The notes beneath the pieces were generated by a model. The model was not told the origin of the DNA and ran no database searches. It saw nothing but the letters and a program-made list of their open reading frames with translations. DNA of 64,000 bases from Amaricoccus macauensis. GTDB lineage: Bacteria; Pseudomonadota; Alphaproteobacteria; Rhodobacterales; Rhodobacteraceae. Location: positions 1-64,000 of the forward strand of contig NZ_JACHFM010000006.1 in assembly GCF_014201905.1 (NCBI RefSeq). The letters run 5' to 3'. Positions 50,158 through 63,584 of this stretch are shown here, piece after piece. Position 1 is the first letter of the stretch. Each line of letters starts with the position of its first letter. A program made the position numbers and the translations under genes.

Positions 50158-50316
50158 CCGCTGCGCGGGCTGAGGTTTCTGCGTGTGCTGCCTGAGGCGG
50201 ATTCGAGCTTCAACTTACGGAGACGGGCTCCGGCGACGTGCTGCGGGGCGCGATGGGCCGTCCGTTGGCTTACAAACGCAAGACGCCGCGGCCTTTCGGC
50301 ACGCGGCGTTTGGTAT
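50158..50316. repeat. Repeated block, copy A (left of CRISPR-Cas)
   Basis: This 159-base block recurs in the same orientation at 60050-60200, on the other side of the CRISPR-Cas locus. The copies differ by about five substitutions and one 8-base indel. Both end in a strong hairpin (ACGCCGCGGCC-TTTC-GGC-A-CGCGGCGT) and TTTGGTAT. After it each copy has its own second stem bounded by GGTAT and ATACC. No coding function is recognised. It may be a small mobile repeat, an attachment-like site or a structured RNA. Confidence 0.7.
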
Positions 50317-50629
50317 TCTCGTTGCGGTGGCAGGATACCAACGCCGGTTACTCGTCGAAGCATGGGTCTGGACTGGCGCAGAGGCCTTGTCGGCTGGCGA
50401 GAGCTTTCGCACGGGTCACTGGCTTGCCCGTTTTGGAAGTGGTTCGAGCCTCGCCATCTCCGAGTTGTAGGCCGAGATCATCGCATACCGCGGTACAGGC
50501 GGAGTCCACGCCTTTTAAGCGCGGTCACGGGCACCTCGCGGTGATCCGCGCCGCCGGCGCCCTCGTCGGCCGCCACCTTGTTCCACCAGGACGGACGACG
50601 CGTTCGACCGTAACCTTGCGCACAGGCCA
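50317..50629. other. Gap between repeated block A and the CRISPR array
   Basis: These 313 bases contain no supported gene and no further CRISPR repeats. A stem TTGGTAT...ATACCAA bridges the end of block A at 50310-50342. The rest is undistinguished GC-rich sequence, the leader-distal flank of the array. Confidence 0.4.
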
Positions 50630-50963
50630 TCGTACCTACCCGCGGGCGCGGGGAACAGCAGTCCGCGACGGCGACTCGCTGGTAGTCGCACGGTTCATCC
50701 CCGCGGGCGCGGGGAACAGCGCGTCGCGTTCGACCTTCTGCCGGCGGAACTCGGTTCATCCCCGCGGGCGCGGGGAACAGAGTGCAGCGCAGAAAGTCGC
50801 GAAGTATTTTCGCGGTTCATCCCCGCGGGCGCGGGGAACAGTCGTCCCACGCTTCGCCGCGATCCCGAAAATACGGTTCATCCCCGCGGGCGCGGGGAAC
50901 AGGAAGTTGGCGTCCTCCACCAGATCGTCAGCCACGGTTCATCCCCGCGGGCGCGGGGAACAG
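50630..50963 (-). CRISPR. Type I-E CRISPR array, 6 repeats and 5 spacers
   Basis: Repeats of 29 bases with a CCCCGCGGGCGCGGGG core stand at 50691, 50752, 50813, 50874 and 50935, with a degenerate terminal copy at 50630-50658. All five spacers are exactly 32 bases. Read on the minus strand the repeat begins CTGTTCCCCGCG and ends GATGAACCG, the type I-E form. Decay of the copy at 50630 marks the leader-distal end, so transcription runs from cas2 toward lower coordinates. The five full repeats are identical. Confidence 0.95.
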
Positions 50964-51043
50964 ACTGCCTGGAAGGCATTGCGCTATTGGGATTTTCGCG
51001 AAGTCAAAGAACTTACCGATTCTGAGGTCTCTCGGCCTCCAGG
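50964..51043 (-). promoter_or_regulatory. Probable CRISPR leader
   Basis: The 80 bases between the first full repeat and the cas2 stop are the only place for the leader. They include an AT-richer part (AAGTCAAAGAACTTACCGAT) and would hold the array promoter and integration-host-factor site. The leader is short. Confidence 0.55.
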
Positions 51044-51346
<303 letters not shown>

Positions 51347-52285
51347 TCAACCACGATGGCCCTCGTCGCCTGCGGCAGGGCTGTCGTCGAAGGCAGGACC
51401 GAGCGCTTCCGGCGGCGGCTCGGGACGCGGCAGGGAACCGGCCTCCAACACCTCCTCGATACGCGGAATGATCTTCGCCAGAAGTCCGGTGCGGCGGAAT
51501 GCGTCCCTGCAGGCAAGCCGCACTGCACGGTCAGGGTGCATATCGAGCTTGCCTTTCGAAGCCAGCCCGGCGACCCGAAACGCCTCGGGGACGACCGTGT
51601 CAAGCTTCCAGAGGTCGGCGATGTCATAGACGAAGGAGAGCGGCTTGCCGGTATGCAGGAAGCCGATCGCCGGTGCGTAGCCCGCCGCGAGGACGGCAGC
51701 TTCGGTCAATCCGTGCAGGCAGGCAGTGGCGGCTGAGAGGCATCGGTTCGGAATATCCCCGGCTTCCCAGTCCCTGGGGTCGTAACTGCGTCGGGCCCAT
51801 CGTACCCCATGGGCCCGGGCAAGCAGCTCGTAGGATTTGCGCACCCGTGCGCCCTCTATTCCGCGAAGCTGGTCGATGGAGCGGCGCTGGGGCGCGTCCT
51901 CTCCAAAGCGCATGGCATACATACGCCGCACCACCCGCAACCGCGCCTCAGGATCGAGGGCGATGGCGGCCTGCCAGAGCAGCCGGTCCGAGCGAGCCCC
52001 GCCTGGCTGACCGGCGGAGTAGAGCCGAACGCCGGCCTCGCCCACCCAGGTGACCAGCGTTCCGGTCCGAGCGGCCAGCGACACCGCGGCATGCGAGATG
52101 CGCGCGCCGGGCTCGAGCATGATCCCGGCGAGGCCGCCGACTGGAATTTGGGTGCGCGTTCCGTCGGCGTTGACCGCGACGAAGGCCCCATCCTGCACAT
52201 CAAGCTGGGCGCGCTCAACAAAGACGAGCGAGGCGCGATCCTTGAGCGGGACCGGCTTCGGCGGCGGCAGGCCGGGCAGGGTCAT
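51347..52285 (-). CDS. cas1: Cas1e, CRISPR integrase
   Basis: The 312-residue metal-dependent integrase that inserts new spacers. The active-site block GFLHTGKPLSFVYDIADLWK carries the conserved His and two Asp, and a conserved Glu lies upstream in the GIEGARVRKSY region. The Pro-rich tail is typical of Cas1e. It overlaps cas6e by four bases. Confidence 0.95.
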   Translation of the reverse strand: MTLPGLPPPKPVPLKDRASLVFVERAQLDVQDGAFVAVNADGTRTQIPVGGLAGIMLEPGARISHAAVSLAARTGTLVTWVGEAGVRLYSAGQPGGARSDRLLWQAAIALDPEARLRVVRRMYAMRFGEDAPQRRSIDQLRGIEGARVRKSYELLARAHGVRWARRSYDPRDWEAGDIPNRCLSAATACLHGLTEAAVLAAGYAPAIGFLHTGKPLSFVYDIADLWKLDTVVPEAFRVAGLASKGKLDMHPDRAVRLACRDAFRRTGLLAKIIPRIEEVLEAGSLPRPEPPPEALGPAFDDSPAAGDEGHRG

Positions 52286-52953
52286 CCTGCCCGTCGGATC
52301 AGCATCAGCCCGCAGCCGAAAGCCTTGGCTCTGCCGAAACCCTGGGCGAGTCGGGCGAGAAAGGCGGCGGGGTCCGTCACTTCCAGCGTGCCGGTCATGT
52401 CGAGGATGCCGAACTGCGGCTGGCCCATCCGCTTCCCCCGATAGCCAGGAAGCGCCGCGACCGAATAGTCGCCGACTTCGACCCCGATCAGGCGAAAGCC
52501 GGTGGTCTCGCCCTGTCGGGTCAGCCAGGCGGCGCCCTCCCGCTGGGCCAAGGCCGCGCGTTCGGGGGCCCTGGTGCCTTTCGGCACGGCGTGGAGCGCG
52601 TCCATCACCACATCGACCCGGCCGACATCCTTTCGGTCACGGGTGGCGTTCGCCCGCAGCGCGAAGGCGAGGCGGTCGCCCGTCCCGAGCCGGGGGGCAA
52701 AGTCCTTCACCTCCGCCGCCTCGAACAGGTCGCTGGGCGCGGGCGGACGGGCGGAGAGCGTCAGGAACTCACCCCCCCTTTCCTCGCGCCAGAGAAAATC
52801 CCGCCTCCGGTCCGGGCTGTCGGCGAAGGCGGCCCAGAGCAGACGGTGATGGGCATCGAGACGCAGACCAGGCTCGGCGGGGTTCAGGATCGCGTCCAGC
52901 GCCTTCGCGGAGGCCGTTCGGGACAGACGCAGACGAGAGAGATACAGCGTCAT
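52282..52953 (-). CDS. casE: Cas6e (CasE), crRNA-processing endonuclease
   Basis: A 223-residue RAMP protein that cuts the repeat transcript. YLSRLRLSR start, LDAHHRLLWAAF with the likely catalytic His, and the glycine-rich GFGRAKAFGCGLMLIRR near the end are Cas6e features. It starts at 52953 in an ATGA overlap with cas5; the longer open frame is the shadow of cas5. Confidence 0.92.
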   Translation of the reverse strand: MTLYLSRLRLSRTASAKALDAILNPAEPGLRLDAHHRLLWAAFADSPDRRRDFLWREERGGEFLTLSARPPAPSDLFEAAEVKDFAPRLGTGDRLAFALRANATRDRKDVGRVDVVMDALHAVPKGTRAPERAALAQREGAAWLTRQGETTGFRLIGVEVGDYSVAALPGYRGKRMGQPQFGILDMTGTLEVTDPAAFLARLAQGFGRAKAFGCGLMLIRRAG

Positions 52954-53638
52954 GCTGAGCGGCCCTTCGGCTGGATCGCAACCTTGCGGACGGCGACACG
53001 GCGCGCGGCAAAATGCCACCTCATCCGGTCGAGCGGCTGGTCCTGCCGCTGCTCCACATGCGTGTCGCCGGGCTCGGCGTCGGTCATCAGCCAGCTGGCC
53101 GTCTCCCCTTGCCGCCACGGCGGCAAGACGAGGGCATCCAGCGCCTCCTCCGGCCCGGCTGCGGTGACGATCTTTGCGCCCGGCGGTGCGGACAGGGGAC
53201 AGGACTTGCGGCCGAGGTAGAGCGTGAAATGCGGAGTTGCCAGTGCGTCGCGCAAGGGCGCGAGGTCGCCACCCCAGACCGCCACCCCATAGAGCGCATC
53301 CGTGCGGTAGTCGCGGAGCGTGATCGTTGTGCTGGAGCGCAGCCGCGCGGCGGCCAGCGCCTGTGGTCGGGAATTCGGCCTCCGGATCGCCGCGGAGGGC
53401 ACGGTCTCTACCGTGTGATAGTCGCGCAGGAGCGTCCCGTCGTCGAAGACCGCAACCCCTACGCGCAGCAGGTCGAGGGCGGAGAAGTCCCCGCCGCGTT
53501 CCAGCCCCAGGGCCGCGCCCAGCAGCCCGAGAATCTCCGAGCGACCAGGCCAGGTCAGCGAGCCGCGCCGCTCGTGCCCCGCCAGTTCGCCCATGGCGGC
53601 GAGGTTCGCCGCGAGGGTGAAGACCAGATAGGGCTGCA

Positions 53639-53639
<1 letters not shown>
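52950..53639 (-). CDS. casD: Cas5e (CasD), Cascade subunit
   Basis: A 229-residue Cascade subunit holding the 5' handle of the crRNA. ERRGSLTWPGRSEILGLLGAAL is the family's N-terminal block and the LRDYRTDALYGVAVWG region follows. Its start overlaps the cas7 stop (TGATG). Confidence 0.92.
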
Positions 53640-55229
<1,590 letters not shown>

Positions 55230-55233
<4 letters not shown>

Positions 55234-56714
55234 GCGGCCCTCCCTTTCCGTGCCGGCTTTTCCAGCATCAGCTTGCCGAACATCGCGTCGCCGTATTTGC
55301 CCTGACCCGCGAAGGCCCCGAGCAGGAGGCGCCGGGCGGTGACGATGCGCGCGATCACGTCGGTCTCCCGCTGGTCGAGCCCCGGCAGGGCCAGCGCGTC
55401 GAACTGCGCCAGCGCCTGGCCGCGCAGGTCCGAGAGCCAGCGCGTCGCAATCTCGGCCGCCGCGGCGCCGGCCTTGAGTTCGTCGAAACGGTCTCGGAAG
55501 GCACGTTCCGTGGCGGCATGGAACGCTTCCCGCTCCGCCTCGCGGGTCGCGCCCCCGGCGAGCAGCGGCTCGAGCGCCGTGCGCAGGGCCAGCGCCGCCT
55601 GGTCCGCCGCCTCGACCAGCCCGGACAGGATCAGTGCTCCGTCCTCCGGCAGATCCACGAAGGGCTGCACCGACAGGGTGAAGTCCAGCGGCTTCATGTT
55701 GTCCATCGCCCAACCGGCGACGATAACCCGCGCCGCCAGCTGCTCGCCCTCCCGCACGCGAGCGTCGAATTCGTCGAGCGCCGCCGCTCGTTCGCGCAGC
55801 TCACCGTTCCCAGCCTTGGCGACAACGCCGAGCCAGTTGCGATAGCCGAAGAGCCCGGCGCGCGGATGGACCGGCAGAGGCGCCTCGCCGGGCTTCATCC
55901 GGTAATAGGGCGTCAGCGGGTGCCGCCACAGGCCGTAGTTCGTGCCCCAGGGTCGCTGGATCACGCCCGCCACCCGCCCTTCGGCGAAGACCAGCCGCAA
56001 TCGGCGGGGCATTCCGAAGAAGGCTTCAATCGCGATCCCTTCGCCCGAGGGCTGATGGACCTGCTGCCCGTTGTCCGAGACTCGCGTCCGGTGCATCCAG
56101 GGCAATTCGTCCGCGCTCGGGGGCGCACCGCAAGGAACATTTGCCCAGACCAGCTCCCAGAGCGGGCAATCCGGTCGCGGCTCCACCAGGGTTACGAGCG
56201 GTCCGCCACCGCGCATGGAGGTGCGGTTGCCCGCGCCCCCCGAAGGCGCGTGCGCCTGCAGCGTATAGAGCGCCATGGCCGCCAGCGCGGGATCGAGCGT
56301 CGGATATCGGTCGCGCCGGACCATCAGGTCGGCGTTCTTCTTCGCCGTGCTCTCGCCGGCCGAGTCGATGAAGAGCATGTCCGGCGACGCTGGCGCGCCC
56401 GGCAGCGCCTCCAGATCCTGCAGGAACCGCGGCCCCTCGCCGTCGAGTTCGAAGGCGGGTGCGAGGGGTGCGAGCCGTGCCCTCAGCCGCTCCGGATCGG
56501 GCACGCGCCGGGCCAGCCAGTCCTCGCGACCGGCCGGTGGGTCGGCGAGGGCGACGAGGCCGATCAGGAGCTCGAGGCAGGCGATGTCGAGATCGGGACG
56601 GGGCCAGGCCGGAAAGCGCACGTCCGGCTCCGCGATCTGGTCAGGCCGGATGGTTCGGGCGCCGGAGGCGGTGGCGACGGGGATCCAGGGGTCCCGGATA
56701 AGGTTCAGTGGCAT
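55230..56714 (-). CDS. casA: Cse1 (CasA/Cas8e), Cascade large subunit
   Basis: The 494-residue large subunit that reads the PAM and recruits Cas3. It begins MPLNLIRDPWIPV and contains DMLFIDSAGESTAKKNADL, GNRTSMRGGGPLVTL and QRPWGTNYGLWRHPLTPYY, all Cse1 hallmarks. The ATG at 56714 is chosen because family similarity starts there; a frame to 56741 is also open. Confidence 0.93.
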
Positions 56715-57011: not shown

Positions 57012-59474
57012 TCACGCCCCGCTCGTCGTTGAGGTGAACAGCAGGCCCCGCCGTGGATCATAGCGCAGCCCCTCGCAGATCCCCCCATTCTCCCCCACCG
57101 GACAGACCGTCAGGCCGGCGCGTTTCCACTCCGGCCAGTCGGCGGTGAAAGCCGCGATCTCCGGCGCCGACTGGTCCGGCAGGGCGAGACCGCGGAAACG
57201 GGTCTCCCGGGCGCTGACCTCGCTCAGCAGCTCCGCCTCCGCGCGGGAGGCGGCCTCGGCCCAGGGGCTGAGGCCCGCGGGCGTGCGGCGCACCAGCAGC
57301 AGGGCCCGGGTCGGCCGGCCGAGGCGCGTGGGGTAATCCCGATCGTCATTCGCGCCACCGCCCTCGCGGTAGCCCTTCGCGATCTTTACGATGTTCAGCC
57401 GGGCGAGGCCGGCCGCGGCATAAGCCTCCCCCGCGGCCCTGTCCTCCGACGCCCGGATCCCCTCGGGGACTCTCAGCAGATTCTCTCCATGCACCGCCTC
57501 GATCAGAGCGCGAAGGCCACCGGGCACCACGATCTCGCCGGCCCGGAACAGGACCTCAGCCGTGCGCCATTGCGCCGCCAGGCCATAGACCCACGCGCCG
57601 CGGGGCTGCACTTCGGCCAGCCAGTGGGCATCCGCCGGGCGAGAAGGGTCGGGGGCGATCACATGCAGGACGGGGCGGGGAACGGGACGCCCAGGGGCGG
57701 GACGCCGGGACATATGACGCCAGAGCCGTCCCGCGCGCTGGACAAGCGCGGCAACCGGGGCGAGATCAGAGACCATAACATCGAAATCGTAGTCGAGGCT
57801 CATTTCCAGAACCTGGGTGGCCACGATTACCCGACCACGCCCGTCTCTCCCCCGCCGCTCGCCCTCTGGCCCGAAGGCGGCCAGGGCGGCGGCCTCGATC
57901 CGCTTGCGGTCGGCGAAAGCGTAGCGGGCGTGAAGCAGCTCTGCCTCCACGCCGGCCGCGCGCAGAGCCTCGACCGCAGCGATCGCGTCGTCCACCGCAT
58001 TTCGCACCCAGGCACAGGCGGCCCCCGCTTCCGAGGCTCGGGCGATCAGCGTCACGGCCTCGTCCGGCATCGTGAGCCGGGCAACCTTGACCGAGCCCTT
58101 GGGCGAGATGACACCGGGAAAATCCCGTACCGCCGCCGCGCCGGGTATTGATAGGGCGGGATAGGCGGGCTCCGGGTCAGGAGAAAAGTCTCGTCCCGCG
58201 CCCTCCTCGAACGCGCGGGCGAGCCGCGCCCGTTGGCCGAGCGGCAGGGTCGCGGTCAGCAAGATCGCCGAGCCTCCGCCCTGGGCGTGGAGGCGAAGCA
58301 GCGCCTCCAGCTCCTCGGCAAGATAGGGATCACCCAATTCGTGCACTTCGTCCACGATCAGGATTTTCGCCGCCAGCCCATGAATCCTCAGGGTGGCGAA
58401 GCGGGTCGGCAGGATCGCCAGCAGCGCCTGGTCGATCGTGCCCACGCCAATATCCGCCAGCAGCGCCCGGCGGCGGCTGTCGGCAAGCCACGGGCCGCAG
58501 ACCACCGTGTCGGACCAGCCGGTCTGCTCCCTCACCTCGCGGAACTCCGGCGAGAGCGCGGCTCGGCCATGTGCCAGCGTCAATGACGGCGGCGCGGCGA
58601 ACAACGCGCGCATGACCTTGCGCGCCCGCTCGAACATGGCGTCGGCAGTGGCCATGGTGGGGAGCGCGAAATAGAGACCCCGCCCCTTGCCTGCCAACAG
58701 CATCCTCTGCGCCAGCAGGAGCGCCGCCTCGGTCTTGCCGGCGCCCGTCTCGTCTTCCACGAAGGCGAGCATAGGGCCGTCGCGCAGGGGAACCTCCAGC
58801 ACCGCCTTCTGCATGGGCCGGACATCGACGCGGGCGAAGGCGAAGGATGGCCAGTCCCCCGCCGGGGCAGGCGGCAGCAACCCGGCCTCCTCCACCGCTC
58901 TGGCTGCCCGCCGCCGTGTCTCCACCAGATATGCGGCCGCCGATGCAGGGCTCTGCGCCGGCGGGAACCACTCCGGGTTCGACCCTATCCAGTCGGCGAC
59001 CACGGTCAGTCCCGAAAGCCGCCAGCTGAGCGCCCTGGCTTCCGCGCTGTCAATCCCGCCGAGCGAGGCCTCTGGCCAGAGGTCGAGGCAGACTTCCACG
59101 AAAGCCTGCGCATCTGCCGCCGCCTCCGGTCCCGCCATCACCCGCATCCTGCGATGGTCCGCGGCCGTATCGCTCGGGGGCCCACCGTGGTGCCCCGCAA
59201 TGGCGGCGACGAGCGGCTGGAGAGTGAGATGGCTACCGCCAATCCGATTGCAGATCAGATCTTCCATGGCTTCCGCGCGCAGCCAGGCCTCCGTCACCTG
59301 CCAGTGGCGCCAGGTCTGGGCCCCCTCGCCGTGGAGCATCCTCCGGAATTGAGCCCCGATCTTGCCGAGGTCGTGGAGTGCCACGAGCAGGCAGAAAAGG
59401 TCACGCCTTCCCGCGGGAAGGTCGGGATCTGATGCGGCGAGCAGGACTTCCGCTACTGCGGCGACATCGAGCAT
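57012..59474 (-). CDS. cas3: Cas3 helicase-nuclease, 5' end apparently lost
   Basis: The effector that unwinds and shreds target DNA. An N-terminal HD nuclease part has LVALHDLGKIG, AGHHGG and TVVADWIGSN. A DExH helicase follows: ETGAGKTEAAL, ILIVDEVHELGD, LLTATLPLG, VATQVLEMSLDYDFD and VQRAGRLWRH. The only ATG (59474) falls inside the first HD motif. In-frame codons upstream to 59531 read LPGKSAAQEGGLEHPAACH, which is family sequence, and then meet a TGA. The first HD histidine (codon 59475-59477) is thus excluded unless a CTG at 59531 or similar codon is used. The rest of the protein (820 residues) looks whole. Confidence 0.88.
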   Translation of the reverse strand: MLDVAAVAEVLLAASDPDLPAGRRDLFCLLVALHDLGKIGAQFRRMLHGEGAQTWRHWQVTEAWLRAEAMEDLICNRIGGSHLTLQPLVAAIAGHHGGPPSDTAADHRRMRVMAGPEAAADAQAFVEVCLDLWPEASLGGIDSAEARALSWRLSGLTVVADWIGSNPEWFPPAQSPASAAAYLVETRRRAARAVEEAGLLPPAPAGDWPSFAFARVDVRPMQKAVLEVPLRDGPMLAFVEDETGAGKTEAALLLAQRMLLAGKGRGLYFALPTMATADAMFERARKVMRALFAAPPSLTLAHGRAALSPEFREVREQTGWSDTVVCGPWLADSRRRALLADIGVGTIDQALLAILPTRFATLRIHGLAAKILIVDEVHELGDPYLAEELEALLRLHAQGGGSAILLTATLPLGQRARLARAFEEGAGRDFSPDPEPAYPALSIPGAAAVRDFPGVISPKGSVKVARLTMPDEAVTLIARASEAGAACAWVRNAVDDAIAAVEALRAAGVEAELLHARYAFADRKRIEAAALAAFGPEGERRGRDGRGRVIVATQVLEMSLDYDFDVMVSDLAPVAALVQRAGRLWRHMSRRPAPGRPVPRPVLHVIAPDPSRPADAHWLAEVQPRGAWVYGLAAQWRTAEVLFRAGEIVVPGGLRALIEAVHGENLLRVPEGIRASEDRAAGEAYAAAGLARLNIVKIAKGYREGGGANDDRDYPTRLGRPTRALLLVRRTPAGLSPWAEAASRAEAELLSEVSARETRFRGLALPDQSAPEIAAFTADWPEWKRAGLTVCPVGENGGICEGLRYDPRRGLLFTSTTSGA

Positions 59475-59631
59475 GTGGCAGGCAGCGGGATGCTCGAGGC
59501 CGCCCTCTTGTGCCGCGCTCTTTCCAGGCAGTCAGTTAAATAGGACCGCACAGTCTTTGGACCAAATTGAAGCAAAGTCCCATACCTACTACGGTAACCC
59601 GGTAACGATCGCTATGGGCCGGCCGGCGCTT

Positions 59632-59745
59632 GCGGGTGCCGACGGAGATGAGGCGGCTGAAGGCGCTGAAAGACGAGACCGCGCGGCCGAAATAGCTCGT
59701 TGCCGAGCTGAGTCTCGACAGGGAATGCTGCAGGACGAGGCGGCG
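59632..59745 (+). pseudogene. IS3-family transposase OrfA remnant, C-terminal part
   Basis: In one frame the sequence reads EMRRLKALKDETARPK, a stop, then LVAELSLDREMLQDEAARPA, close to the leucine-zipper end of IS3-family OrfA proteins (normally ...LDREMLQDVIRRK...). Only the end of the gene is present and it holds an in-frame stop, so it is dead. It lies about 100 bases from the broken 5' end of cas3. Confidence 0.6.
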
Positions 59746-59765
59746 AGGCCGGCCCGCCGCCATGA

Positions 59766-59960
59766 CGAGGTCCTCTGCCCCCTGAAAACTGGACCGCCCG
59801 CTTCTGGAAATCCGGCTACGCTTGAACGGCCGGTGAGAAGCGGAGGAACAATGAAGCCGAGTAGGTATTCGGACGCGCGAGACAGTTGTTCATCCTGAAG
59901 CGGACCGACGAGGGCGTGCCGATCGGCGACGTCTGTCGTGCCGCCCGCTTCCTGCTGTGC
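59766..59960 (+). mobile_element. IS3-family left-end remnant with broken OrfA start
   Basis: CCTCTGCCCCCTGAAAACTG at 59771-59790 resembles an IS3-group terminal repeat. A GGAGGAACA ribosome site and ATG at 59851 follow. The frame reads MKPSRYSDARD, then after a one-base shift QLFILKRTDEGVPIGDVCRAA, matching the helix-turn-helix start of OrfA. The element then breaks off. It points the same way as the adjacent OrfA fragment, so at least two insertions or a rearranged one lie here. Confidence 0.6.
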
Positions 59961-60049
59961 TTCCGTAGACTGCTCTTCTTCACGTCTGTCTCCTTCGGGT
60001 GACGGACCCTCACTCAAATCGAGGGATCGGGAAGGGGGCAGGTCAGTGG

Positions 60050-60200
60050 CCGCTGCGCGGGCTGAGGTTTCTGCGTGTGCTGCTTGCGGCGGATTCGAGG
60101 ACGGATACGGGCTGCGGCGTCGTGCTGCGGGGCGGGATGGGCCGTCCGTTGGCTTACAAACGCAAGACGCCGCGGCCTTTCGGCACGCGGCGTTTGGTAT
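60050..60200. repeat. Repeated block, copy B (right of CRISPR-Cas)
   Basis: The same-orientation counterpart of 50158-50316, sharing CCGCTGCGCGGGCTGAGG at the left edge and the strong ACGCCGCG/CGCGGCGT hairpin with TTTGGTAT at the right edge. Directly after it, GGTATCGTTGGTTGC pairs with GCAACTACCGATACC (60196-60232, two mismatches). The gap 59535-60293 otherwise holds only IS debris. Confidence 0.7.
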
Positions 60201-60293
60201 CGTTGGTTGCGGGGGCGTGCAACTACCGATACCGACATTCACTACAAGTCACTGTCTGAAATGGAGCAATCGGCGCTTGGATCGTTTTGACGC

Positions 60294-63200
60294 CTATTCC
60301 TCGTCGTCCAAATCCGTGAATGACTGGAGCAACATTGCCGTAGTAACCTCGTCTCGTACAACATCCATTTCGGCGGATGCACCCGCCTTGAATGACCCAC
60401 GCAATGAAACATATGCTCCAAAAGTCTCAACCCGCGAGGCGTTTGTTGTCATTTGTCTTAAGGCCGTATGATGACGATCATGATCCCCAACTCTTACCAT
60501 CTGTGGCAACATATCAACCACGGGAAGTGAAACCCCGCCCTCTTCAGCGTTCTTGTAAGCGGCGATCTGCCCAAGCACGCCACACAGAAAGCCGAGATCA
60601 GGGGCGATGCGTATGGCGAAGCGGCGAGCCCGTTGTGCTGTTGAGGATTGGTTTGCTCGCTGTTTGACCTCTCCTTCGTGCTTCCGAATGAACGCGAGAA
60701 GCCAAGCCTCGATCTCGACCAGCGTGCGTCCTGCGCACCACATTGAAACCAACGTCTTGAGCGCTCCCAATATCCGCTTAGCGGTGGCCTTAGGTATTGT
60801 TGTATTCGTGTAGGCGCGGCCGAAAACGGACTCAAGAGCTGTTTCCCTGACGAAGATCGTCAAATCCAAAGGATGTTCGGCCACTATATCCAGCAGCCAG
60901 TTGATCCAGTCCTCGGTAGCCGTCTTTTCAACTGGCGCATGATCAAACGCCTCGACCAATCTTTCGATCAGCCTTGGCGGAACACCATTGCGGACAGCAA
61001 TTTCCCGTTGCCAATCAAGAACGGGCGGATCTTCCAGTTGTTCCTCGGCAGCCCTGAGCGCGGTTCGGCGACGTTCTAGCCATTTGTCCGCCCCCAAAGC
61101 ATTAGCTTCCCTACGCCGGAAAAACCCCAGCGAACGGCGAACGATATCGTCGAAGCCACTCTCTCCTGCTGTGGTGACAGCAGACAAACGCCGGATTATC
61201 GACTGCACTTTTGGATCAGGGTTAGCGGATACCTCGATCCGATCAAGAAGCAACTCTATCGGATCATAAACCTCCTCACAGGCATCCTGCTCGGAGAAAA
61301 CGGTCTTCAGAATTCCTTCGGACGGAAGAGAGAGGTTCCCTCTTTCCACACCGATGGGTTTTGCGGGAACAACGATTGCCAGACCGGTTGCAGCATACGC
61401 CGCGCGTCCAGCCCTCCCGAGCGCATTGAGTATCTCGTGAGGACGCAAGTCCGTGCGAGGATTGCCGCTTGGGTCATCAATCGCGCTCCTGTCGGTTCCT
61501 GCAAGAATCACGACATCGCACGGCAGATTCAACCCTTGCGCAATTGTAGATGTCGCGGCAACCACATCAAGGCCCAGATCCTCACTCTCAGAATCCCTGC
61601 GAACCCGAAAAACGCTTTCCGTCAACCGCCGCTCCAATGGCAGCAGATCACCATGATGCACCGCTGCTCTGCACCCCATGGGATCGAATGTGGCTTCGGC
61701 CGCTCCCACATCCCTGAGAACTGACTTGCGCATTTCCTCCTGCGTCTCATCCAGAGCGATGGTGGCCGGGGCCAGTAGTCCATTGATCTGATCCGCAACG
61801 CTCCCGCATGCTTTAGTATCGTTGCAGAAGACGATCACGCGCTTTCCTACGGCCGCATAGTCGGCCGCGATCCGCGCAGCGACTTCGTTCCTGTTCGATG
61901 TCAATTTCCCCTTGGCATTTTTCACGAGCGGCGGCCGTTGATCCGTGAGCGCCTGCACGACCAGCTTCTCCGACCTTTTGGGGTGCCATCCAGAAATCAA
62001 CGAAAAGAGTCCAAGAGGCTGTGCGGGGACCCGACTCCGCGCGGACTGGGTCTTCGCCTTCGATGCCGCTTGCACAGCCTCAAGCACGTCAGAGCGATCA
62101 TAGATGACGCAAGAGCGAAGTTGCCGTGTTGGCTTCCAAGGATCGTCGAACGCTTCGACCTCCCTTCCCGTCACGGCCCGCAGCCAACGAGCGATTTCGG
62201 CGCCGTTGGCGACCATAGCAGACAGCAGCAGCAGGTCTGCTTCCTTGCGATGGCGGAGAAACGTCAGGAGCGCTAACATCGCATCAATGGCGCGTGCGCT
62301 GATTTTCGATGACGTAGCCGGATCGTCGGCACTGATGAGATGGAACTCATCGAAGACGAGGAGGCCGACCTTGTCGAAAAGCTCAGGCGCGAAACCAAGG
62401 AGGGCAAGGCAACGCTCGGGTGTCATGACGGAGAATGGTGGCAGCTTGTCCCCAAGCTCTTCGAGCGCAACGTCTTCAACAACGCTGACCGCCTCTAGGC
62501 CTCCGATTTGTGCAGAGAGATCGGTCTCTACCTGATCTACGAGAGCGTGAGTAGGAGCCAGGTAGACGACGCTCTCGCCCGCGCATAGGGTTGCTGCGAT
62601 TTTCAGGACAGATAGCGTGGTCTTCCCCGAACCAGTGGGCGATGTCATCACCATGGACCTGCCACGGTTCAAGTATCCCGTCCTGACAGCTTTCAGATGA
62701 TTGATCCATAGAAATGGGTGCGATTGCGTCTGAGACAGAAGCCAGTCGGCCCATGCCTTAGCTTGCGCTCCAGATGGTGTTGGGAGTCGAACCAGCATCG
62801 CGGCCTGCATTCCATCAACAAGCCGACTCAACAGTGTGGCCAGATGATGTGGACCGGCAAACTGGTGCTGCACGGTTCCTTCCAGCGCTACGTTGATCTC
62901 CACCGCTGAGGCCTCCGACAAGCGGATAACACGCTTGAGCCTTGAGCGGATATCAGGGTCGGACACAGCGCTCCCGCGCGCCTCCTGTCCAAGTCCCTGA
63001 ACCACGTAGGCACATTCCCTTAGAAGAAGATCAGTGGCTACTTCTCGGCTATCTCCCATGGCGATGGAGTCTTCGCCGAGGTCACGCTCTATCAGCGTCG
63101 TGAGATTGCCAGTTGCCAATTCCCGAAGACTCAGGATCAGAGATCGTCTAACCGCCCGCCGTTCGCCTCTGGCCCTGAGCTGCCCCGCCACTTCCGCTGC

Positions 63201-63584
63201 GTCCGCCGCCCGATCAGCAATCAGGAACAGTAGCGTTGCGGAGATTGATGATCCAATAGCATCACTCGAAATAACGGTTGGACGATCCAATGCAGTTTCA
63301 CGAACGCGGCTCAAGATCTGATGAGCACTAGCTGCGACGAAAGCTGCGGCACGCGTCTGCTCCGGTCGAAGATTGAGTGCAACATAGGCTTCAAAAGTCG
63401 AAGCAAGACGCCTTACCCGGTCGATCACTCCGCTTGCAGGCTCAGATTCACCTTCACGGGACAGAAGGCGAACTGTCGCCAACTCAATGTGAGCCGCCGT
63501 CAACAACTCATCCAGCGTTTCAGGATCGAGACCCGGTAGATCAGGAGCCTCCCGTAGAAGAGCGCGGGAACTTGGATCAAACAC
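60294..63584 (-). CDS. Large SF2 DExH/D helicase, Hachiman HamB-like
   Basis: A 1096-residue superfamily 2 helicase. A helical N-terminal region (residues 1-300) precedes Walker A SPTGSGKTT, a GLLVFDEFHLIS motif II, a LLSAMVANGAE motif III, VAATSTIAQGLNLP motif V and NALGRAGRA motif VI; a long C-terminal region follows. The layout is Ski2-like. It overlaps by eight bases the preceding gene for a small protein with an ExK-type nuclease motif, the order HamA-HamB of Hachiman defence. Base composition is visibly less GC-rich than in the metabolic genes, pointing to transfer. Another defence or repair helicase is possible. Confidence 0.7.
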   Translation of the reverse strand: MFDPSSRALLREAPDLPGLDPETLDELLTAAHIELATVRLLSREGESEPASGVIDRVRRLASTFEAYVALNLRPEQTRAAAFVAASAHQILSRVRETALDRPTVISSDAIGSSISATLLFLIADRAADAAEVAGQLRARGERRAVRRSLILSLRELATGNLTTLIERDLGEDSIAMGDSREVATDLLLRECAYVVQGLGQEARGSAVSDPDIRSRLKRVIRLSEASAVEINVALEGTVQHQFAGPHHLATLLSRLVDGMQAAMLVRLPTPSGAQAKAWADWLLSQTQSHPFLWINHLKAVRTGYLNRGRSMVMTSPTGSGKTTLSVLKIAATLCAGESVVYLAPTHALVDQVETDLSAQIGGLEAVSVVEDVALEELGDKLPPFSVMTPERCLALLGFAPELFDKVGLLVFDEFHLISADDPATSSKISARAIDAMLALLTFLRHRKEADLLLLSAMVANGAEIARWLRAVTGREVEAFDDPWKPTRQLRSCVIYDRSDVLEAVQAASKAKTQSARSRVPAQPLGLFSLISGWHPKRSEKLVVQALTDQRPPLVKNAKGKLTSNRNEVAARIAADYAAVGKRVIVFCNDTKACGSVADQINGLLAPATIALDETQEEMRKSVLRDVGAAEATFDPMGCRAAVHHGDLLPLERRLTESVFRVRRDSESEDLGLDVVAATSTIAQGLNLPCDVVILAGTDRSAIDDPSGNPRTDLRPHEILNALGRAGRAAYAATGLAIVVPAKPIGVERGNLSLPSEGILKTVFSEQDACEEVYDPIELLLDRIEVSANPDPKVQSIIRRLSAVTTAGESGFDDIVRRSLGFFRRREANALGADKWLERRRTALRAAEEQLEDPPVLDWQREIAVRNGVPPRLIERLVEAFDHAPVEKTATEDWINWLLDIVAEHPLDLTIFVRETALESVFGRAYTNTTIPKATAKRILGALKTLVSMWCAGRTLVEIEAWLLAFIRKHEGEVKQRANQSSTAQRARRFAIRIAPDLGFLCGVLGQIAAYKNAEEGGVSLPVVDMLPQMVRVGDHDRHHTALRQMTTNASRVETFGAYVSLRGSFKAGASAEMDVVRDEVTTAMLLQSFTDLDDEE

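Follow-up and report, generated by a model that had tools for sequence, protein, structure and literature searches.

The window, as we call the whole 64,000-nucleotide stretch of Amaricoccus macauensis DNA analysed here, holds a type I-E CRISPR-cas locus on its minus strand. Besides cas3, seven genes were recognised, each intact: cas8e/cse1 (55230..56714; TIGR02547; 78% identity to its counterpart in Amaricoccus solimangrovi), cse2/casB (54706..55233; TIGR02548), cas7 (53639..54709; TIGR01869), cas5 (52950..53639; TIGR01868), cas6 (52282..52956; TIGR01907), cas1 (51347..52285; TIGR03638), and cas2 (51044..51331; TIGR01873). The full set typical of type I-E (cas8e, cse2, cas7, cas5, cas6e, cas1e, and cas2e) is thus present, with all NCBIfam scores above cut-off and no stop within any of the seven genes. 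A repeat search placed a CRISPR array beside cas2 on the same strand (50630..50963), preceded by a leader at 50964-51043. It consists of six 29-base repeats at 61-base spacing, of which the leader-distal one is degenerate, and five spacers; the 29-base repeats and 32-base spacers agree with an I-E array.

The body of cas3 (57012..59528, minus strand) encodes the HD nuclease, the helicase, and the C-terminal part with no further stop. It matched Cas3_HD, DEAD, and Cas3-like_C_2 in Pfam, TIGR01596 and TIGR01587 above cut-off in NCBIfam, and Cas3e in PADLOC (8e-187), while the E. coli-type model NF007248 reached 359 bits, below its cut-off of 569. An intact cas3, as expected of a type I-E locus, was not found: the domains are encoded, but the frame is broken near the start, possibly through an assembly error. 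By the open reading frame listing and its translation, the long cas3 frame (frame B) runs from CTG 59531 to a stop at 57012. It is opened by a TGA (59532..59534, minus strand), after which it translates as LPGKSAAQEGGLEHPAACH-MLDVAAVAE. A scripted frame scan gave the ATG at 59472..59474 (minus strand) as the first standard start codon of frame B; no ATG, GTG, or TTG was found ahead of it, and CTG 59531 was the only other near-cognate candidate found there. These frame relations bear out the initial annotation, which had described the TGA at 59534-59532, the Cas3-like residues behind it, and ATG 59474 as the first standard start.

The initial annotation had further held that the preceding residues and the start codon of cas3 were missing, and here the neighbouring frame (frame A) tells otherwise. 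It contains GTG 59551-59549, followed by CGG TCC TAT TTA ACT GAC (59548-59531), which reads RSYLTD, and by TG (59530-59529), a Trp codon one base short; across the 59529/59528 boundary the reading continues with CCT GGA AAG AGC, that is, PGKS. We regard the GTG at 59549..59551 (minus strand) as the likely ancestral start of cas3, as it stands seven codons before the Trp, within the range of spacings in relatives. TTG 59575 is likewise open in frame A, and no clear ribosome-binding site was seen ahead of GTG 59551. Frame A ends at a TAG (59453..59455, minus strand), 32 codons on from the GTG.

When 100 related genomes were searched with this Cas3, a match at E<=1e-60 was obtained in three, including one of the ten genomes from the same genus. 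Of the 159 relatives found overall, the best 80 were kept as loci for a comparison of N-termini. By eye, these 80 remain in frame through the Trp, a PGKS-like motif, and an HMLDVAAVAE-like stretch, with variable residues ahead; the motif is mostly WPGKS in the relatives, as against the YWGKS that the initial annotation gave for E. coli Cas3. In a scripted count over the same best 80 of 159, 79 passed for the Trp, 76 for the H-x-LD[VI] motif, and 79 for an in-frame ATG, GTG, or TTG upstream. The one relative that failed the Trp test (L073) has the Trp by eye, one place further out. Related loci sharing the N-terminus of the window had been named as evidence that would speak against a defect, and the frame break occurs in none of the best 80 of 159 relatives. 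The absence of a standard start is by itself not unique to the window, given that one of these 80 likewise lacks ATG, GTG, and TTG upstream of the motif. In this Thioclava relative (L046) the cas3 N-terminus is in frame, and none of the three codons occurs between the upstream TAG and PGKS (upstream of 3001); a non-standard start or a different lesion is a possible reading.

The most direct comparison came from A. solimangrovi (L007), a member of the same genus whose cas3 reads SYLTDWPGKS at this place. A blastn alignment with its locus starts at TCC 59545 and extends through cas3; a gap of one base within the Trp codon places the lesion between 59529 and 59528, at the end of the segment that carries RSYLTD and the first two Trp bases (59529..59548, minus strand). 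Ahead of the gap 17 bases are aligned, 14 of them identical, and the other three change no amino acid (TTA/CTG for Leu and ACT/ACG for Thr); our own rough binomial estimate for such a match arising by chance at one fixed offset is about 1e-6. Homologous coding sequence is therefore found on either side of the frame break, as expected of a cas3 pseudogene. Because the frame A codons are present and the alignment with A. solimangrovi shows a gap of one base, the 5' end of the gene is not lost; in the sequence as assembled, cas3 is broken by a one-base deletion. A frameshift so close to a start codon can pass for a lost 5' end.

Insertion-sequence debris lies nearby and had been proposed as the cause. 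Between the upstream helicase gene and cas3 we found fragmented remnants of an IS3-like orfA (59648..60049) by DNA matches and translation, which agrees with the debris that the initial annotation had placed about 100 bases away. Positions 59739-60049 show 84-85% DNA matches to stretches on contigs C11 and C5 of the same genome, together with a 30-base exact match on C3. The adjoining 59648-59738 gives an OrfA-like reading by eye from its translation, starting near 59648, about 100 bases from GTG 59551. The OrfA is presumably of the IS3 family, a candidate assignment based on an OrfA signature. That insertion and excision of an IS3 element removed the 5' end of cas3 seems to us very improbable: the remnants are about 100 bases upstream, but they do not overlap the cas3 coding sequence or the one-base lesion in the Trp codon, and the 5' codons supposedly removed are present in the adjacent frame, where blastn aligns them. 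As an account of the coding lesion, loss of the 5' end through IS3 is thereby refuted.

The deletion could also have arisen in the assembly rather than in the organism, in which case the organism would have an unbroken cas3 and a functional I-E system. Assemblies often contain small erroneous indels, and the remainder of cas3 is conserved and undamaged, as would be expected of a working gene too. On the other side, the site is no long homopolymer, being a two-base run in relatives. Contig C5 ends within the stretch that matches the IS-like remnant, and this suggests a short-read assembly, in which indel errors would be rare. We consider an assembly or base-calling error possible, though distinctly the less probable account.

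The frequency of frame breaks elsewhere in the genome bears on the same question. A first tblastn comparison with A. solimangrovi, in which hits below 45% identity, best hits covering less than 30% of the reference, and overlapping genes were dropped, covered 25 genes (31.8 kb) and found no breaks. A larger one, between 1.30 Mb of the genome and 919 kb of A. solimangrovi, covered 72 genes (86.8 kb) and dropped secondary hits below 35%, best hits below 55% or shorter than 240 bases, and overlapping genes. It gave four candidate breaks, of which about two survived inspection, a result that lends some weight to an assembly error; when one deletion was planted per gene, 58 references were flagged, a count from which the four earlier candidates are not subtracted. 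Those on C4 (about 43.1 kb) and on C1 near 568.9 kb seem to be neighbouring genes viewed in an antisense frame. The other two candidate breaks relative to A. solimangrovi lie on C1 at about 692.4 kb and 820.9 kb, each possibly a pseudogene or an assembly error. Other frame breaks, real or erroneous, may thus exist in the genome. A codon-usage scan for frameshifts over 499.5 kb raised 11 flags and recovered only 7 of 61 planted deletions; its two flags in the window (47545 and 54757) lie no more than about 60 bases from unremarkable gene junctions, and the scan thus carries no information on this point.

Relative to A. solimangrovi, cas3 (833 codons) had a pN/pS of 0.288 and cas8e one of 0.268; the other six genes ranged from 0.11 to 0.41, with 323 of 356 residues aligned for cas7 and 298 of 312 for cas1. 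Because the value for cas3 is like that for cas8e and cas3 contains no other stop, the lesion looks recent, unless it is an assembly error.

The position of the break determines what could still be translated. The His codon just before ATG 59474 (59475..59477, minus strand) aligns with residue 37 of Thermobifida fusca Cas3 (chain 6c66_G). The accessible passages of PMC11417383 and PMC5965380 describe H37 as crucial to the HD nuclease and as one of the ligands of its iron. The HD and helicase domains of T. fusca Cas3 (PDB 4qqw and 6c66) align over query residues 11-715, and the equivalent of H37 is encoded in the window; unlike in T. fusca Cas3, it sits upstream of all standard starts of its frame. 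The initial annotation was right that starting at ATG 59474 drops this first metal-binding His of the HD domain. Ribosomes starting at GTG 59551 would pass into the wrong frame through the one-base deletion in the eighth cas3 codon, the conserved Trp of WPGKS, and would meet the TAG after 32 codons. Initiation at ATG 59474, where the cas3 frame offers its next standard start, could at best yield a protein without the first HD-nuclease His. The genome yielded one Cas3 match only at E<=0.001 (17 of 17 candidates scored), and therefore nothing obvious replaces the broken gene.

On these grounds we infer that the frameshift exists in the organism itself, that full-length Cas3 is absent, and that interference is lost; judged from sequence, we hold with moderate confidence that this is an interference-deficient but otherwise intact I-E locus. 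Cascade (cas8e-cse2-cas7-cas5-cas6) and Cas1-Cas2 should still be produced, and the locus would probably bind its targets and might still acquire spacers naively, while DNA degradation and Cas3-dependent primed adaptation would be lost. The earlier suggestion that the locus binds but does not degrade DNA remains a reasonable prediction, as no standard start would give full-length Cas3 and a product begun at ATG 59474 would lack a metal-binding His.

An almost full-length Cas3 that retains the HD His might nevertheless be made, if translation began at CTG 59531 or if ribosomes changed frame near the Trp. From that CTG onwards frame B is uninterrupted, and a product begun there would keep PGKS and the His; the low pN/pS of cas3 would suit a gene still in use, and the Thioclava relative, in frame without an upstream ATG, GTG, or TTG, indicates that a non-standard start may occur in this Cas3 family. 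CTG starts are rare, however, and the 20 bases ahead of CTG 59531 contain no Shine-Dalgarno-like sequence. This CTG moreover overlaps the broken Trp codon, so that its product would be without the Trp that is kept in the best 80 of 159 relatives. Frameshifting fares no better: frame A was scanned from 59551 to its stop for a slippery heptamer (zero-frame X XXY YYZ) and contains none, and a programmed -1 frameshift was rejected on that ground. We therefore regard continued production of such a Cas3 as unlikely and keep to an interference-deficient locus as the preferred reading.

The I-E locus of A. solimangrovi HB172011 (NZ_VFRP01000027.1) is closely comparable, with the same cas genes in one syntenic stretch, a cas3 that is 77% identical, and a leader and repeats like those of the window. 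It differs in that its cas3 is in frame, and in that 46 repeat-core matches occur in the 4.3 kb examined, as compared to six repeats in the window. A similar state of decay is known from Salmonella, where, according to the available portion of PMC2886076, 9 of 16 genomes carry cas3 and cse1 as pseudogenes next to a locus of the E. coli subtype (I-E) that appears intact. As in the window, cas3 is disabled there and, as far as that portion goes, the rest of the locus appears intact; in Salmonella cse1 is also a pseudogene, whereas in the window the damage is confined to cas3 and consists of one base lost near its start. Loss of cas3 beside an otherwise kept I-E locus is thus, on the part of that source at hand, a known kind of decay. 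No earlier report of the present locus was among the matches listed in literature searches on cas3 frameshifts or pseudogenes, type I-E, and Amaricoccus CRISPR, and the match for Amaricoccus and CRISPR concerned Meganema. The case looks like ordinary recent gene decay, or an assembly or sequencing error, and nothing new; its general interest is low, because cas3 loss beside an otherwise intact I-E locus has already been described. If the deletion is real, the strain is a natural case of an I-E locus without its destroyer but with Cascade and the adaptation genes retained, and the loss is recent enough that the other cas genes remain intact. Such strains would be well suited to studying the effects of a Cascade that only binds.

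The broken site also resembles part of the CRISPR array. The plus strand over the broken cas3 start (59522-59537, TTCCAGGCAGTCAGTT) shares 15 of 16 bases with the leader-repeat junction of the window at 50974-50959 (TTCCAGGCAGTCTGTT), so that the cas3-start site on the plus strand and the junction (50959-50974) on the minus strand stand in inverted relative orientation. With up to three mismatches allowed, these two are the only matches in the window; shuffled sequences gave 0.19 matches on average and at least two in 2 of 100 cases. The genome holds three copies of the 12-base core, at the cas3-start site, at the junction, and once on C1. Three related leaders end in TTCCAGCCAGA instead, unlike the leader end of the window. 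The leader-repeat junction is where Cas1-Cas2 insert spacers, and an off-target reaction at a junction mimic could conceivably have nicked cas3 and put it out of action, so that Cascade would now only bind; we give this idea hardly any credence. The likeness is taken as chance, because the DWPGK codons dictate part of it and the two sites were compared only in hindsight.

Two further CRISPR elements occur in the genome. A larger I-E-type array on contig C3 (203771-204653; L130) has 15 repeats by our count, which differ slightly from those of the window array, and no Cas3 match nearby; contig C2 carries a solitary leader with a single repeat (298188-298233, the repeat at 298205-298233; L132). 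The leaders of both end in TTCCAGCCAGA. Self-targeting was rejected as a motive for cas3 loss, as no spacer-length genome match rose above chance either for the window array (40 of 41 first-look candidates scored) or for the C3 array (40 of 49); the strong genome matches to array sequence were other arrays and stray repeats. Against phage records, the window array gave 11 matches at E<=1, and the three that cover at least 80% of the query are array-like sequence. Six Gordonia phage records match the stretch containing spacer 1 at 80-81% (E about 0.3), too weakly to name a target. The C3 array gave two phage matches.

Finally, the whole CRISPR-cas locus is flanked by direct repeats of about 165-175 bases (50158-50331 and 60050-60215), which are 89% alike overall and 96% alike over a pair of ungapped blocks (50 and 100 bases). 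They may mark the boundaries of a mobile or duplicated segment. Only two copies were found in the genome itself, and neither the ten other genomes of the genus, with up to 40 first-look candidates scored in each, nor the plasmids collection gave a match at E<=0.001; no plasmid twin of the cas3 region was found either, and Rfam gave no match at gathering score across the window. Upstream of the locus lies a two-gene module on the minus strand, comprising 60294-63584 and 63577-64431, the latter extending past the window edge. The 284-residue product of the latter had no PADLOC or Pfam match at E<=1. The former encodes an SF2 helicase resembling HamB of Hachiman (best Hachiman model 1.5e-26, partial), for which the best PADLOC model overall was PDC-M23B (5.1e-29), and the two genes may form a Hachiman-like or undescribed defence pair.
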